NCBI GenBank assembly: GCA_024709365.1
Contig: JANJWV010000070.1
Coordinates: 1 to 32,625, forward strand
Reading direction: 5' to 3'
Source of the DNA: Desulfomicrobium sp.
GTDB taxonomy: Bacteria > Desulfobacterota > Desulfovibrionia > Desulfovibrionales > Desulfomicrobiaceae
DNA length: 32,625 nucleotides
The translations under genes and the position numbers were made by a program. Shown in pieces: positions 6,628 to 21,833 of the stretch. Position 1 is the first letter of the stretch, and each line of letters starts with the position of its first letter. Under the pieces are notes generated by a model. That model saw nothing but the letters and a program-made list of their open reading frames with translations, ran no database searches and had not been told where the DNA came from.

Positions 6628-7761
6628 ATGATCCTGACCAACGCCCGCATCGTCCTGGCCGACCGCGTCGTCCACGGCACCCTGACCGTGCGCGACGGCC
6701 GCATCGAGTCCGTGCACGAAGGACCCGCCGTCAGCCCGGGCGACTTGGACATGGCAGGGGACTTCCTCGTCCCCGGCCTCGTCGAACTGCATACCGACAA
6801 CCTCGAAAAGCAGCTCCTGCCACGCCCCGGCGTCCTCTGGCCCTCGGCGCGCGCGGCCCTGCTGGCCCACGACGCGCAGCTCGTGGCCGCCGGCATCACC
6901 ACCGTCCTCGACGCCCTGTCCTGCGGACAGTACTATGAAAAGAGCGACCGTCGGACCATGCTGACCCTGGCCCTCGACGCCCTGCGCGAACTGCGGCCCG
7001 CCGGGCACCTGCGCGCCGATCACCTCCTGCACGTGCGCTGCGAAATCTCAGACCCCGACCTGCCGCGGCTTTTCGAGCCCTTCCGCGACATGGACGAAGT
7101 CCACCTCGTCTCCCTCATGGACCACACCCCCGGACAGCGGCAGTTCGTCGACCTCGGCGCCTACCGCACCTACTACAGCAAGGACCGGAAGTGGACCGAC
7201 GAGGAGTTCGAATCCGAAATGGCCCGCATGCGCGACGCCCAGGCCCGCTTCGCCGGTCCCCACGCCGAGGACATCCTGGCCTGGTGCCGTGAACGCGGCG
7301 TGCCCGCCGCCAGCCATGACGACGCCACCACCGCCCACGTCGACTGGGCCTACGCCCAGGGCATGGCCATCAGCGAATTCCCGACAACCATGGACGCCGC
7401 CCGCCGCGCCTGCGAACTCGGCCTCCTGACCCTCATGGGCTCGCCCAACGTCGTGCGCGGCGGCTCCCACTCGGGCAACGTCTCCGTGCGCGAGGTGGCC
7501 GCTGCCGGCTTCCTGGGCGGCCTGTCCTCGGACTACGTGCCCGCGAGCCTCCTGCACGCCGCCTGGATCCTGCACGCCGACGTCTCTCTGCCCCTCTGGG
7601 ACGCCGTGGCCCTCGTCACCGCCAACCCCGCCCGCGCCCTGGGCCTGTCCGACCGCGGACGCATCGAACCCGGCCTCAAGGCCGACCTCGTCCGTGTCCA
7701 CATCGACCGCGACCTGCCGGTGGTGCGCCGGGTCTGGCGGGATGGGGTGCGGGTGTATTAG
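6628..7761 (+). CDS. phnM: Ribose-1-phosphonate-5-triphosphate diphosphatase PhnM, first copy
   Basis: This 377-residue amidohydrolase-superfamily enzyme removes pyrophosphate from ribose-1-phosphonate-5-triphosphate to give the PhnJ substrate. Recognisable motifs are the metal-binding HTDNLEK (residues 55-61), LMDHTPGQRQ, SHDDATTAH, EFPTTMDAA and a final SSDYVPASLL. The ATG at 6628 follows GGAGG and lies five bases after the phnL stop. A diverged second copy is encoded at 12848-13984 in the convergent phn operon, and this copy differs from it along its whole length, so they are paralogues rather than a recent duplicate. Confidence 0.94.
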   Translation: MILTNARIVLADRVVHGTLTVRDGRIESVHEGPAVSPGDLDMAGDFLVPGLVELHTDNLEKQLLPRPGVLWPSARAALLAHDAQLVAAGITTVLDALSCGQYYEKSDRRTMLTLALDALRELRPAGHLRADHLLHVRCEISDPDLPRLFEPFRDMDEVHLVSLMDHTPGQRQFVDLGAYRTYYSKDRKWTDEEFESEMARMRDAQARFAGPHAEDILAWCRERGVPAASHDDATTAHVDWAYAQGMAISEFPTTMDAARRACELGLLTLMGSPNVVRGGSHSGNVSVREVAAAGFLGGLSSDYVPASLLHAAWILHADVSLPLWDAVALVTANPARALGLSDRGRIEPGLKADLVRVHIDRDLPVVRRVWRDGVRVY

Positions 7762-7833
7762 AGGGGGCGAAGAAAGGCGGACCCGACGAACCGTCGCATG
7801 ATGCGGCACCGGATGATTGGGCGGGATGCCGTA

Positions 7834-7861
7834 GGGGCGAAAAATATTTCGCCCCCCCCCC
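7834..7861. other. Perfect 9-bp stem-loop running into a C10 tract between phnM and phnN
   Basis: GGGGCGAAA-aata-TTTCGCCCC forms a nine-pair stem with a four-base loop, and the right arm runs into ten consecutive C residues (7852-7861). There is no U-run, so it is more likely an mRNA processing or stabilising element than a full terminator. It sits in the only sizeable gap (143 bp) of the operon. Confidence 0.65.
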
Positions 7862-7904
7862 ACCACGATGTCGGTAACATAAATTGTTCTGCCACAGGAT
7901 TGTT

Positions 7905-8465
7905 ATGCCAAGACTGATCAACATCATGGGCCCCTCGGGGTGCGGAAAGGACGCGCTGATGGGCGAGGCGAGAGGAATCCTGCCGCCGGAGAAGCTGGTG
8001 GTTTTCGCCCACCGCTACATCACCCGTCCCGCCGACGCGGGCGGGGAGAACCATGTGGCCCTGTCGCGGGCCGAGTTCCAGCTGCGTCTCAATCGCGGAC
8101 TCTTCGCCCTTTCCTGGGAAAGCCACGGCTTCGTCTACGGCATCGGCCGCGAGATCGATCTCTGGATGGAGAAAGGGTTCAGCGTGGTCATGAACGGCTC
8201 GCGCGAGGCCCTTCCGGCGGCCCTGCGCGCATACCCCGGAATGCTGCCCGTGCTGGTGACCGTGCCTGAGGAGGTGCTCCGGCATCGACTGGCAAGCCGG
8301 GGCAGGGAGGGTGCGGCGGACATGGAACTGCGTTTGGCGCGGGCGCGCATGGACGTGGCCGATGTCCCCGGGCTCGTGCGCTTCGACAATTCAGGCCCGC
8401 TGACGGAGCGCGGCCGGGCCCTGGCCGAGCTCATCCTAGAAACTCTTGACGACAGAAGGGAATGA
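7905..8465 (+). CDS. phnN: Ribose 1,5-bisphosphate phosphokinase PhnN
   Basis: This 186-residue P-loop kinase of the guanylate-kinase-like fold phosphorylates ribose 1,5-bisphosphate to PRPP, closing the phosphonate pathway into nucleotide metabolism. Walker A is GPSGCGKD at residues 9-16, and the segments RYITRPAD and [12 protein letters not shown] match the family. The ATG at 7905 was preferred over an upstream in-frame TTG because the protein then starts, like its relatives, just before the first beta strand. The stop overlaps the next start in ATGA. Confidence 0.92.
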
Positions 8466-9070
8466 CAGTGCTTTCACCGGAACCGACCATCCACCCCACG
8501 GCGGTGGTGACCGACAGCAGCCTCGGCTTCTGGACCGAGATCGGCGAGCAGACCGAGATCATCTCCTCGACCATCGGGGACTACTCGTATTTCTGCGACC
8601 GCTGCCACGTGATGTACGCGGCTGTGGGCAAATTCTGCTCCGTGGCCAACCACGCACGCCTGAACCCGAGCAACCACCCGACCTGGCGCGCCACCCAGCA
8701 CCACTTCACCTACAGAAGCGCCAAGTTCGGCCTGGGGCCCGATGACGACGCCTTCTTCGCCTGGCGCAGGGAACACCCCGTCACCCTCGGTCACGACGTC
8801 TGGATCGGCCACGGCGCCCTCGTCATGCCCGGCGTGACCATAGGCACGGGCGCGGTTGTCGCCTCGGGAGCCGTGGTCACCAAGGACGTTCCGGACTACG
8901 CCATCGTCGCCGGCATCCCGGCCAGGGTCATCAAATACCGCTTTCCGGCCGAACTGCGGGAAAAACTCATCTCCCTGGCCTGGTGGGACTGGGAACACGC
9001 CAGACTGGCGGCGGCGATGCGGGATTTTCGGGAGATGAGCGCGGAAGCGTTCGTGGAGAAACACGGCTGA
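8462..9070 (+). CDS. Hexapeptide-repeat acyltransferase of phosphonate operons
   Basis: This 202-residue left-handed beta-helix protein shows imperfect hexapeptide repeats at about residues 10-60 and 105-150 (for example [16 protein letters not shown] and [14 protein letters not shown]), followed by PARVIKYRF, as in CatB/XAT-type acetyltransferases. A family of such proteins is annotated as phosphonate-metabolism transferases because it recurs in C-P lyase operons. Its substrate is unproven; acetylation of an aminophosphonate, as PhnO does with an unrelated fold, is one possibility. The gene overlaps phnN by four bases (ATGA), so it belongs to the operon. Confidence 0.85.
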
Positions 9071-14859: not shown

Positions 14860-15825
14860 CTACATCCTGGCCTTGATGGCTTCGAGCTTGGTGTCAATCT
14901 CGGCGAGCTTTTTGGTCTTTTCGTCGGCGGCGATGTTGGCGTCGCCTTCGACCTTGATGCGGCTCTTGAAGAGTTCGAGCTGGCGGATGGGCAGGAGCTG
15001 GTCGTCGGTGGACTCCTTGAAGGGGGCCCAGCCCAGGGCGGCCAGGATGGCCTTCTCGTTTTCCTTGCCCGTGGTGCCGTAGGTCATGATGAACTTCTTG
15101 ACCTTGGCCTTGACGTCCTCGGGCAGGTCCTTGCGCCAGACGAGGGGGTCGCTGGGGATGAGGGGCGAGGTCCAGATGACTTTGATGTCCTTGCGCTTGT
15201 CGGGATGGCTCTTTTCGAGCTTGGCCAGGTTCTCGCTGTTGTTGGTGGCCACGTCGACCTGCCTGTTGGCCACGCTCAGGGCGTTGGTCTCGTGGTTGGC
15301 GTTGACCACGGTCTTGAAGATCCTTTTGGGGTCGACCTTGTTCACGGCGAAGACGTAGTAACCGGGGACCAGGAAGCCGGAGGTGGAGTTGGGGTCGCCG
15401 TTGCCGAAGGTCAGGTCGGCGGCCTTCTTCAGGACGTCTTCGAGGGAGGCCAGGGGGGAATCCTTGTGTGCGATGAGATGGGAGTAGTAGCCGGGAGTGC
15501 CGTCGGCGGGCACGGTCTGGGCGAAGATCTCGCCGTCGGCGCGGTCCACGGCCTCCATGGCGCTCTTGTTGCCGTACCAGGCCACCTGGACCTTGTTGAA
15601 GCGCATGCCCTCGATGATGCCGGCGTAGTCCGAGGCGAAGAAGGCGTTGATCTTGAGGCCCGTGGCCTTCTCCATTTCGGCCAGGAAGGGCTCCCAGTCC
15701 TTCTTGAGGTTCATGGTCGCCTCGGTGGAGATGATGCCGAAGTTGATTTCCTTGATCTCGGCGGACACGGTCTGCGCCCCCAGCAGGGCGAAGAGGACGA
15801 AGAGGCCGAATAGCTTGCGAATCAT
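14860..15825 (-). CDS. phnD: Phosphonate ABC transporter substrate-binding protein PhnD
   Basis: This 321-residue periplasmic binding protein starts with a signal peptide (residues 1-22, ending TVSA, then EIKEINFG). The mature part carries the PhnD/phosphate-phosphonate-binding signature: [45 protein letters not shown], and [18 protein letters not shown], where the Ser/Thr cluster contacts the phosphonate oxygens. The start has AAGGAG nine bases upstream. It is the second gene after phnC and delivers alkylphosphonates to PhnE. Confidence 0.95.
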
Positions 15826-15856
15826 GGTCTGGACTCCTTTGAAACGTGATCGGTTA

Positions 15857-16696
<840 letters not shown>

Positions 16697-16748
16697 GGCG
16701 TTTCCTCGCGTTTTGTCTTCACTAGGAAACGTCTGTGACGGGACTGTG

Positions 16749-17162: not shown

Positions 17163-17747
17163 TCACGGCTGGATGTCGACTCTTTCCCCGGGGGCGGCCC
17201 GCAAGGCGCGTTCGCGAAGGGCGGCGGCATCCGGGCGCAACGGGTCGTCACCGGGCAGGGTGCGCAGCACGCCGTCGAGGAGGGCGACGGATTCGTCCCG
17301 GCGGCCGGCCTGGAGCAGGGCCAGGGCTCTGGTGCACGTGAACAGCGGGTTGCCGGGGTCCAGGTCCAGGGCCTTGCCCGACCATTCCAGGGCCTCGGAG
17401 TCGCGTCCCTGCCGCGCCAGGCTGTAGGCCAGATTGTTCATGGCCTCGGGGTTGCCGGGGTTGCGGCGCAGGGCCCTGCGGTATCCGTCTTCGGCCTCAG
17501 GCCACCGGCCGAGGGCCGCATGCACGTTGCCGAGGTTGATGAGCGGCTGGTCCCAGGTCGGGTCCTTGTCGGCGGCCTCGGCGTAGGCCTGCAGGGCCAG
17601 GTCCGGTTCTCCGGCCGATTCGTGGGCCACGCCCAGGTCGTTGCGCTCGCGGGCGTCGAGGGGGTCCGAGAGCACGACGATCCTGGGTGCGGCGCATCCG
17701 GCGAGGAGCAGGGTCAGGAAAAGGATGGCGCGCAGGGCGATGTTCAC
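17163..17747 (-). CDS. Tetratricopeptide-repeat lipoprotein
   Basis: This 194-residue protein begins with a lipoprotein signal peptide ending LLAGC (cysteine 18). At least four TPR-like units follow, each about 34 residues: about 34-67, 68-101 (with NLGNVHAALGRWPEAEDGYR), 102-135 (NNLAYSLARQGRDSEALEW) and 136-170. TPR proteins hold protein partners together, so it is probably a scaffold on the periplasmic face of a membrane. The GTG start has GGAG six bases upstream. It begins three bases after the stop of the C39-like gene, so the two are co-translated; in PA2778-type proteins these two halves are one polypeptide. Confidence 0.88.
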   Translation of the reverse strand: MNIALRAILFLTLLLAGCAAPRIVVLSDPLDARERNDLGVAHESAGEPDLALQAYAEAADKDPTWDQPLINLGNVHAALGRWPEAEDGYRRALRRNPGNPEAMNNLAYSLARQGRDSEALEWSGKALDLDPGNPLFTCTRALALLQAGRRDESVALLDGVLRTLPGDDPLRPDAAALRERALRAAPGERVDIQP

Positions 17748-17750
17748 GGT

Positions 17751-18296
17751 TCACTCCACCACGAGGTACAGTTTGTTCATGCGTGTCCAGCCCGTGAGCA
17801 GATCGTCGTCCCGGACGTACTGGTTTCCCTGCGTCCCGGCGTGCAGGAGGAAGCCCGCCGCGTCATGGCCGTAGACGACGAGGAAGTGTCCCTGGCTGTA
17901 GAGGGGGGCGCCCATGTCCGCCAGGACGATGACCGGGTAGCCGGCGTCGAGAGCGTTCCGCAGCTGGGCCGCGTCTCCTCTGCCCGAACGGGTCGAAAGG
18001 CCCAGGGAGCGCGCGTAGTTCTCCATGTCCGGCAGCAGGGTGCGCTGCATGGCGGGCGTGTAGACCCGTGCCGTGACTTCGGCCAGGGGAACCGGCCGCC
18101 CCCGGAAGGCCAGGACCGAAGCCAGGGCCGCCGGGCCGCAGTCGGTCCTGTCGGTTTGGGCCACGAACGGCACGTCGAGACGCACGGCTCCCGGGTCCGC
18201 AAACGATTCCGCGCGGAACGCGGAGCCGAGCCCGCACCCCGCGCAGAGCAGAAGAAGTGCCAGGGTCACGGCCCGGCACAGGTCATTGGATGACAA
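17751..18296 (-). CDS. C39/papain-like cysteine peptidase lipoprotein (PA2778-like)
   Basis: This 181-residue protein has a lipoprotein signal (LALLLLCAGC, cysteine 21) followed by a C39-like peptidase domain. The motif TDCGPAALASVL places the nucleophile at C53, and GHFLVVYGHD gives H137 as the likely catalytic histidine. The third residue is less clear: the usual DP turn is replaced by HAGTQGNQY. It resembles the N-terminal half of PA2778-family proteins, whose substrate is unknown. The start is a TTG at 18296 overlapping the upstream gene by 14 bp; a GTG nine codons later is possible but would remove the basic residue of the signal peptide. Confidence 0.85.
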   Translation of the reverse strand: MSSNDLCRAVTLALLLLCAGCGLGSAFRAESFADPGAVRLDVPFVAQTDRTDCGPAALASVLAFRGRPVPLAEVTARVYTPAMQRTLLPDMENYARSLGLSTRSGRGDAAQLRNALDAGYPVIVLADMGAPLYSQGHFLVVYGHDAAGFLLHAGTQGNQYVRDDDLLTGWTRMNKLYLVVE

Positions 18297-18681
18297 TGCG
18301 TCTGTCGCTGATCTTGAGGATGACCACGACCAGGAGGATGATCAGCAGCACGCCGATCACCACGCCGATCACGCCGCCGCCCACGTCGTCCGAGAGGCTG
18401 GCCAGCTGGTGGAGCTGCTCGTCGTTCAGGGAGCCGAGCTTGGCGCCGACCTCCTCCGGCGTCAGGCCGTAGTCGGCCAGCCGCTGGGCCACGACTTTCT
18501 GCTCCAGGGCGTTGCGGATGGACGCGATGTCGGCTTCGCGCTGTTCGATGGACTGGCCCGTGGACAGTCTGCTCTGGGCCAGGAAGGCCGCCGCGTCGGT
18601 CGGGATCAGGGCGAGGACGAGATATGAGAGCAGGACCGCCCAGCAAAGGCGGGGGTCGAAAAACCATTTGTCGCTGAACAT
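18283..18681 (-). CDS. PA2779-like membrane protein
   Basis: This 132-residue protein has an N-terminal hydrophobic segment (about 12-27) and a C-terminal transmembrane helix (about 101-124, GGGVIGVVIGVLLIILLVVV). Between them lies a helical periplasmic part with LADYGLTPEEVGAKLGSLNDEQLHQLA, which resembles PA2779-family proteins. Members of that family travel with PA2778-type C39 peptidases, exactly as here. The ATG at 18681 follows AAGGAGG. The gene overlaps the C39 gene by 14 bp, so the products are probably made in step. Function unknown; a peptidase substrate or membrane anchor are both possible. Confidence 0.85.
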   Translation of the reverse strand: MFSDKWFFDPRLCWAVLLSYLVLALIPTDAAAFLAQSRLSTGQSIEQREADIASIRNALEQKVVAQRLADYGLTPEEVGAKLGSLNDEQLHQLASLSDDVGGGVIGVVIGVLLIILLVVVILKISDRRIVIQ

Positions 18682-18913: not shown

Positions 18914-19234
18914 CTATTTGCAGGAATTCAGGGGTTCGCTGTCGATCTCGTGAACCCTGCCGTTGCGAATCTTCACCTTGGCGCAGCCGCCGATTCCCAG
19001 CGGGCCTTCGGCCTGGTCGAATTCCGTCGCCGGGTCGGTCAGTACGACGCGCCCGCCGATGACCCATTCCCCGGAAAACCCGCCCGCCGGCATCTCCGTG
19101 ACGATGCCGCGGAACTCGCTGCGTATGTCGTCGCCTCCTCGCTTGGCCGAGGCGGGGGAGAGGAAGACGGCCAGGAGCAGAAGGACGCAGATCATGGCCG
19201 TTATCGTGATCGGTCTGCGGTGCATGCTTTTCAT
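18914..19234 (-). CDS. Small secreted protein resembling DUF5666 domains
   Basis: This 106-residue protein has a Sec signal peptide (residues 1-30: basic MKSMHRR, a hydrophobic core and SPASA before the mature KRGGDD). The mature part, with FRGIVTEMPAGG, GEWVIGGRVVLTDPATEF and CAKVKIRNGRVHEIDSEPL, looks like a single all-beta OB-like DUF5666 domain: the pattern G-x-V/I-x-P, G-x-W-x-I-G-G and V-x-G-x-V is typical. It has two cysteines in the second half, possibly a disulfide. AAGGAGG precedes the ATG at 19234. Its role is unknown; its position suggests an envelope function linked to the PA2779/C39/TPR genes. Confidence 0.7.
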   Translation of the reverse strand: MKSMHRRPITITAMICVLLLLAVFLSPASAKRGGDDIRSEFRGIVTEMPAGGFSGEWVIGGRVVLTDPATEFDQAEGPLGIGGCAKVKIRNGRVHEIDSEPLNSCK

Positions 19235-19567
19235 AGGGGCCTCCTTGGTGGCAGATCGCGAGAGGGATTCCGCGGCTGGTCCGTATATCGCTGGGTGCAT
19301 GCCCGGATCGCCGCGCTGGCAGGGGAGCAGCCTTGAGATATTAACCTACGTTCGCTGCGTGCGAAGTCAATGTCGGCGGTCGTCTTCTCCACGGCTGAGG
19401 CGCACTTCGGGACAATACGTGGGGAAGGGGCAACGTGAAGCAGGCCGCTCCGGATCATGCCCGGGGCGGCCTGCAGTATGGCTGGATGAACAGGCCCGGG
19501 CGCTTCATGCCCGCTTCCTGCCTGGTGTCGTCACTCGCGGAAGCCCTGTCCGGCCGGGACAGGGATG
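19235..19567. other. Intergenic region with a long hairpin beyond nifV
   Basis: No supported gene is visible in these 333 bp. At 19440-19474, GCAGGCCGC-TCCGG and CCGGG-GCGGCCTGC pair as a 14-bp stem (one T-G wobble) with a 7-nt loop. It lies about 95 bp past the nifV stop on the minus strand and may end or protect the nifV transcript, although there is no U-run. The part near 19235-19300 should hold the promoter of the small secreted protein gene, but no strong promoter was recognised. Confidence 0.5.

Positions 19568-21833
<2,266 letters not shown>

Follow-up and report, generated by a model that had tools for sequence, protein, structure and literature searches.

The window, the whole 32,625-nucleotide stretch of Desulfomicrobium sp. 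DNA analysed here, carries the unfused form of the known PA2778/PA2779 pair: a PA2779-family membrane protein followed by a C39 cysteine peptidase lipoprotein and a TPR lipoprotein. This separate arrangement is probably the older one, judging from C39 trees. PA2779 and the protease are near-obligate partners, and we propose that PA2779 may be the dedicated substrate of the C39 enzyme. Both families are catalogued by NCBI and named after Pseudomonas PA2778 and PA2779. Our search of the open literature, in which many subscription journals are not covered, returned no functional study of PA2778, PA2779 or DUF6627 and passing mentions only: a transposon insertion beside PA2779 whose effect came through the divergent regulator BswR (PMC3985676), an expression list that includes PA2779 (PMC10155442) and a mention in a strain SNP list (PMC3697988). 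We therefore describe the window as an unfused variant of a known pair.

Three adjacent genes on the minus strand

The three genes of the window are transcribed from the minus strand in the order PA2779-family gene, C39 lipoprotein gene, TPR lipoprotein gene, with the following features:

18283..18681, minus strand: PA2779-family protein, putative substrate, 132 aa (ATG at 18681, stop at 18283; NF033919, 84.1 bits against an NCBIfam cut-off of 40; DUF6627, 40.0 bits against a cut-off of 27); predicted layout of signal peptide, periplasmic helices, Gly motif, C-terminal transmembrane helix and short basic tail
18586..18681, minus strand: predicted Sec signal peptide of PA2779, with predicted cleavage after Ala32, from the conservation of Ala at -1 in relatives
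18373..18381, minus strand: Gly101-Gly102-Gly103 motif of PA2779, membrane-adjacent, proposed C39 cleavage site from glycine conservation in relatives and a leader-like hydrophobic pattern
18313..18372, minus strand: predicted C-terminal transmembrane segment of PA2779, then KISDRRIVIQ; the hydrophobic segment is conserved in relatives
17751..18296, minus strand: C39 cysteine peptidase lipoprotein, 181 aa (TTG at 18296, stop at 17751; PF03412, 51.5 bits against a cut-off of 22); lipobox Cys21, Gln47, catalytic Cys53, His137
17163..17747, minus strand: TPR lipoprotein, 194 aa (GTG at 17747, stop at 17163; TPR families over cut-off, NF033920 positions 166-254); lipobox Cys18, conserved PRIVVLSDPL stretch, TPR repeats

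The C39 ORF overlaps the PA2779 ORF by 14 bp, and the TPR ORF begins 3 bp past the C39 stop in the same reading frame. The lipobox reads LCAGC at Cys21 of the C39 protein and LLAGC at Cys18 of the TPR protein. The ORFs thus bear out the initial annotation, which had described separate lipoboxes at Cys21 and Cys18, a catalytic Cys53, a 3-bp gap and an overlapping PA2779-like gene upstream. All three ORFs are real genes, and the same three-gene order is found in relatives across the genus, the order and the phylum. The window genome holds a single copy each of PA2779 and of a C39 gene of this type.

Around the module, the downstream genes at 14860-16699 (minus strand) encode PhnD and PhnC of a phosphonate ABC transporter and show no sign of belonging to it. 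Upstream of PA2779 are a small protein with a weak DUF5666 match (18914-19300, minus strand; 19.3 bits, cut-off 27) and a relative of NifV-like homocitrate synthase (19568-20689, minus strand; 304 bits, below the curated cut-off of 463).

Separate and fused forms of PA2778

The C39 and TPR proteins together tile a single model, NF033920 (PA2778): the C39 protein aligns to positions 4-144 of 255 with 83.1 bits, and the TPR protein to positions 166-254 with 42.9 bits. As an equivalog, NF033920 describes one C39-plus-TPR protein scoring over 150 bits, and the window has instead two proteins, each under that cut-off; the companion PA2779 gene that the model also expects lies directly upstream of the C39 gene. 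This tiling upholds the initial annotation's view of the two lipoproteins as the two halves of PA2778. That view was to fall if their homologues never occurred fused or together, and homologues of the two are found in both states.

We sampled about 80 loci from the window's phylum via PA2779 and 80 named loci via C39 alone, the two sets partly overlapping; the collection was scanned for C39 with an 8-row profile. Among 150 C39 genes, 75 have an adjacent separate TPR gene, 71 are fused to a TPR part and four have no TPR nearby. "Split" is therefore a misleading label, since separate genes are as common as fused ones. A lipobox is present in all 75 separate TPR proteins, in 70 of 71 fused proteins and in 66 of 79 separate C39 proteins. 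In one clade of separate C39 proteins (L100, L102-L105, L108, L109), the signal peptide lacks the lipobox Cys and the TPR partner retains its own lipobox.

In a tree of 140 C39 domains, all fused forms fall on one side of a single branch (SH-aLRT 99). The fused/separate label changes once on this tree, as against about 47 times when labels are shuffled, which rules out the alternation of fused and separate forms that had been suggested as a check. The fused forms are mainly from Pseudomonadota, with some Thermodesulfobacteriota nested within them, and the separate forms are mainly from Thermodesulfobacteriota and Nitrospirota. When the phylum's other C39 lipoproteins are added to the tree, the fused group is again one clade (100), surrounded by single-domain proteins, and fusion is therefore probably the derived state. 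These outgroup C39 lipoproteins are distant, long-branched and scattered rather than forming one group, so the direction of the rooting is provisional. The split of a fused ancestor, implied by the original wording, finds no support, as the separate form looks ancestral on the C39 tree. The lipobox carried by every separate TPR gene likewise rules out a recent split by a stop codon, even though the two window frames are in register.

PA2779 and the C39 protease are near-obligate partners

In a draw of 249 Pseudomonadota genomes, PA2779 occurs in 32, and PA2778 scoring over its cut-off occurs in the same 32. All 34 PA2779 copies in these genomes have PA2778 108-206 nt downstream, measured from profile match to profile match, and two of the genomes carry two PA2779-PA2778 systems each. 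Across 297 genomes of the window's phylum, with C39 presence taken as 100 bits or more, 71 have both genes, two have PA2779 only and four have C39 only (Fisher p 7e-61). Four of these six discordant genomes have the genes at contig ends, leaving G057 and G272. The latter is the one clear protease-side exception to the partnership: a C39 and TPR pair stands beside a gatB-like gene (L232, 3756-5096), and PA2779 was not detected in the genome. In G057 (L083, about 7475-8700), a divergent PA2779-like gene lies directly before a TPR lipoprotein gene; this locus lacks a C39 gene, and no strong C39 match turned up in the genome.

Similarly, loci retrieved by C39 alone have PA2779 upstream in 73 of 79 cases, one of them by a weak match. 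In two loci of this retrieval, L166 and L196, the sequence starts at the gene. Thermodesulfovibrio-type genomes (L174, L176; with L230, L231) carry C39 alone before a glgC-like gene, with PA2779 and a TPR lipoprotein gene as neighbours at another site of that genome. In L144 (before 2376), the PA2779 gene upstream of C39 looks broken, with only the Gly-motif part and the transmembrane end in frame. Tandem PA2779 pairs precede one C39-TPR pair in L096, L150 and L151, and several other genomes carry two or three PA2779 copies.

Across the 150 loci, no further neighbour is conserved beyond near relatives, and only the three genes recur widely, which rules out a wider operon. The module is self-contained and three-part, since its genes co-occur and no other neighbour recurs in this way. 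This co-occurrence supports the three-component envelope system first proposed from the window, for which our search found no published function. The module is also dispensable, as several members of the window's genus, mostly with smaller genomes, lack PA2779. Within G000-G015 of this genus, PA2779 is found mainly in genomes of 3.7-4.5 Mb, and those of 2.3-3.2 Mb lack it. A search for plasmid carriage of PA2779 gave no match.

The C39 enzyme

A C39 profile search of the PDB found the peptidase domains of ComA (5e-14), LahT (3e-10) and PCAT1. The structure model of a fused relative, L179, matched the ComA, LahT and PCAT1 domains at Z 16-18, with 6mpz at Z 17.7. These double-glycine peptidases are the closest solved relatives of the C39 enzyme. 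The catalytic Cys and His are present in 140 of 140 C39 relatives and the oxyanion Gln in 135 of 140; the corresponding window residues are Cys53, His137 and Gln47. The Asp that completes the triad is not kept, being replaced mostly by Ser (the commonest), Ala or Thr in relatives and by Ala153 in the window, as aligned with ComA. From the profile and model matches and the invariant Cys and His, we assign the domain to the double-glycine-type peptidases by descent, with a predicted Cys-His pair and an altered third residue.

A leader-like helix before the membrane

The N-terminal hydrophobic segment of PA2779 ends in a signal peptidase I-type site, with Ala at -1 in 81 of 82 relatives. Next, in the relatives, comes a short helical region whose last helix is conserved; a near-invariant Gly follows and, immediately afterwards, a transmembrane helix. 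Among 129 non-redundant relatives, the motif Gly is present in 123 and replaced by Ala in the other six. The residue after it is mostly Gly, Ala or Ser, with Gln, Thr, Glu or Lys in roughly a tenth. A sequence search for a solved relative of PA2779 found none (best E 0.04).

With the conserved Gly taken as P1, bulky hydrophobic residues occupy P4 at 0.80-0.88, P7 at 0.71-0.98 and P11 at 0.90-0.98; overall, P4, P7, P11 and P14 are bulky hydrophobic in 71-98% in both classes of relatives, and the intervening positions are mostly polar. When bound to the LahT protease, a leader is helical from residue -4 to residue -11, and its V-4, L-7 and L-12 sit in a hydrophobic groove (PMC6363468). The hydrophobic positions before the PA2779 Gly thus appear to resemble the leader pattern read by C39 double-glycine proteases. 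Positions -4 and -7 match the LahT leader exactly with the conserved Gly as P1, and -12 fits better with Gly as P2, so the candidate scissile bond is uncertain by one residue; the PA2779 register fits the LahT leader only with P11 in the place of L-12. The window's genus and its near relatives are two residues shorter just before the motif, which reads VGGG there, and the register is therefore less clear; taking the third Gly as P1 restores a hydrophobic residue at -4. In P. stutzeri, all four tested conditions place the PA2779 gene among the top 3% by expression (PMC10155442), a level more in keeping with a substrate or structural protein than with an enzyme.

Structure models of the module

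The TPR start is in register with the C39 stop in the window, which allows one natural C39-TPR chain, and we modelled it with the TGA stop read as a residue. AlphaFold gave a pLDDT of 93.4 and a pTM of 0.56, the latter about the expectation for two independently placed domains; the C39 and TPR domains are thus predicted to fold well, with a mutual arrangement that is not fixed. Foldseek matches to this model were filled by TPR proteins.

At locus L179 a single TAA separates PA2779 from an in-register fused PA2778 frame, and natural read-through gives one chain. Its AlphaFold model reached a pLDDT of 89.2 and a pTM of 0.84, a confidence that tethering may inflate. By our own estimate, the protease and TPR part alone, about 282 of the 436 residues, could give a pTM of roughly 0.7, and the higher value therefore suggests that the PA2779 helical domain is also placed with some confidence. 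The L179 model suggests that PA2779 may dock on the protease-TPR unit. The last helix of PA2779 stops just before a non-helical HLPAGAS, followed by the transmembrane helix, a leader-like look.

A proposed mechanism and its rivals

We propose that PA2779 is a dedicated substrate, cut at its membrane-side Gly motif, and that the TPR protein is a docking partner, a reading whose chances we judge evenly balanced. PA2779 would be exported by Sec, lose its signal peptide and remain anchored by its C-terminal transmembrane helix, with the helical domain in the periplasm. The C39 lipoprotein would recognise the last periplasmic helix as C39 domains recognise a double-glycine leader, and would cut at the conserved Gly motif at the membrane border, freeing the helical domain from its anchor. 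The TPR lipoprotein, whose counterpart in Pseudomonadota is fused to the protease, may dock or present PA2779 and keep the protease at a membrane. What we observe directly is how the genes lie, their homology, a near-obligate co-occurrence, retention of the catalytic Cys and His, and a conserved motif; that PA2779 is cut, at which bond, and what becomes of the freed domain and to what end, we infer.

Co-occurrence, the leader-like Gly motif, the conserved Cys and His and the L179 joint model would all support PA2779 as a substrate, and tandem PA2779 genes beside single proteases (L096, L150, L151) suit one. Against it stand the lipobox sequences, the lost triad Asp, the variable residue after the Gly and the imperfect register. 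The strongest objection is one of location. In E. coli, a lipoprotein without Asp at +2 goes to the outer membrane; sorting rules differ between bacteria. Asp at +2 is found in none of 211 lipobox sequences of C39, TPR and fused proteins, and by the E. coli rule the C39 and TPR lipoproteins should lie in the outer membrane, whereas the PA2779 helix is expected in the inner membrane.

In the main rival, PA2779 would be an uncut partner, a pseudo-substrate whose helix fills the C39 groove and may anchor, activate or inhibit the enzyme, with another envelope protein as the true substrate. Placement in opposite membranes, as predicted, would be easier to reconcile with a bridge than with a protease and its substrate. 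Co-occurrence and a confident joint model would suit any stable partner, the window genome has only one PA2779, and an enzyme that has lost the catalytic Asp might be weak or regulated. A partner of this kind would not, however, readily account for a membrane-side Gly motif that is among the most conserved positions and follows a groove-like hydrophobic pattern, nor for invariant Cys and His or tandem PA2779 copies beside one protease, and we consider this account unlikely, if clearly the most serious competitor.

The altered third residue could also mean that the C39 domain is no longer a protease and now serves for binding, as do the C39-like domains of type 1 secretion transporters; the module would then be a structural envelope complex or bridge. 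The module has no transporter, bacteriocin-like cargo or other conserved neighbour, as such a complex might. Yet C39-like domains that have lost activity are known to lack the Cys, and here Cys and His persist in all 140 divergent sequences, with Gln in 135, which makes this reading improbable.

We rate as very improbable that the module exports or matures a small peptide encoded at another locus, in the manner of bacteriocin or signal peptide systems: C39 domains mostly belong to such systems and the next-best NCBI model for the C39 protein after PA2778 is the NHLP bacteriocin export peptidase, but C39 exporters join the peptidase to an ABC transporter and the 181-aa window protein has no ABC domain, no transporter or small-peptide neighbour is conserved across 150 loci, the enzyme is a predicted periplasmic lipoprotein and the adjacent ATPase is PhnC of the phosphonate transporter. 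Of the "export or processing job" first suggested for the module, export thus lacks support, having no transporter partner and no other conserved neighbour, and processing is the better reading, with PA2779 as the putative substrate.

Comparison with known systems

Compared with the Pseudomonas PA2778/PA2779 type (NF033920, NF033919), the window has both halves of PA2778 in the same order, homologous C39 and TPR parts, and PA2779 directly upstream. The Pseudomonas type makes one fused protein where the window makes two separate lipoproteins, and the window C39 lies on a different deep branch of the C39 tree. The PA2779 proteins also differ, with GGG and a basic tail in the window and PAG and a TDILG-x-T-x-VFPF tail in the Pseudomonas type. 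With ComA, LahT and PCAT1 (MEROPS C39), the window enzyme shares the fold, the catalytic Cys and His, the oxyanion Gln and, in its candidate substrate, a Gly motif preceded by a helix carrying hydrophobic residues at intervals. Unlike them, it has no transporter, is a predicted periplasmic lipoprotein rather than a cytoplasmic domain, and has its catalytic Asp replaced; moreover, the leader-like helix lies in a Sec-exported protein and its motif abuts a transmembrane helix.

CTERM sorting systems (PEP-CTERM/exosortase, GlyGly-CTERM/rhombosortase) combine a substrate motif, a transmembrane helix and a short basic tail with a dedicated enzyme. PA2779 has such a tail (GGG, a hydrophobic segment, KISDRR), conserved in its separate-gene relatives, and by analogy a dedicated partner enzyme. 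Unlike the multi-pass membrane enzymes of CTERM systems, the window enzyme is a C39 lipoprotein, and the candidate substrates number one to three in a genome. Another C39-family peptidase beside envelope proteins and outside a transporter gene is FapD, from the Pseudomonas functional amyloid operon; membership in that family is ruled out by an NF058616 score of 17.9 bits against a cut-off of 330. The sampled loci have no conserved Fap-like neighbours.

More broadly, the module may represent a widespread form of C-terminal processing, in which a lipoprotein C39 enzyme, with a TPR adaptor, frees a Sec-exported anchored protein at a Gly motif, and leader logic serves as an anchor-release signal outside a transporter; we rate this generalisation slightly short of an even chance. 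The unfused form allows the protease and its TPR partner to be deleted and purified separately. Two large bacterial groups commonly carry the trio: it occurs in 32 of the 249 Pseudomonadota genomes drawn and in about a quarter of the genomes sampled from the window's phylum. If PA2779 is the substrate, an unstudied family pair would become an enzyme and its target with a testable cleavage site, and C39 peptidases would gain a role outside peptide export.
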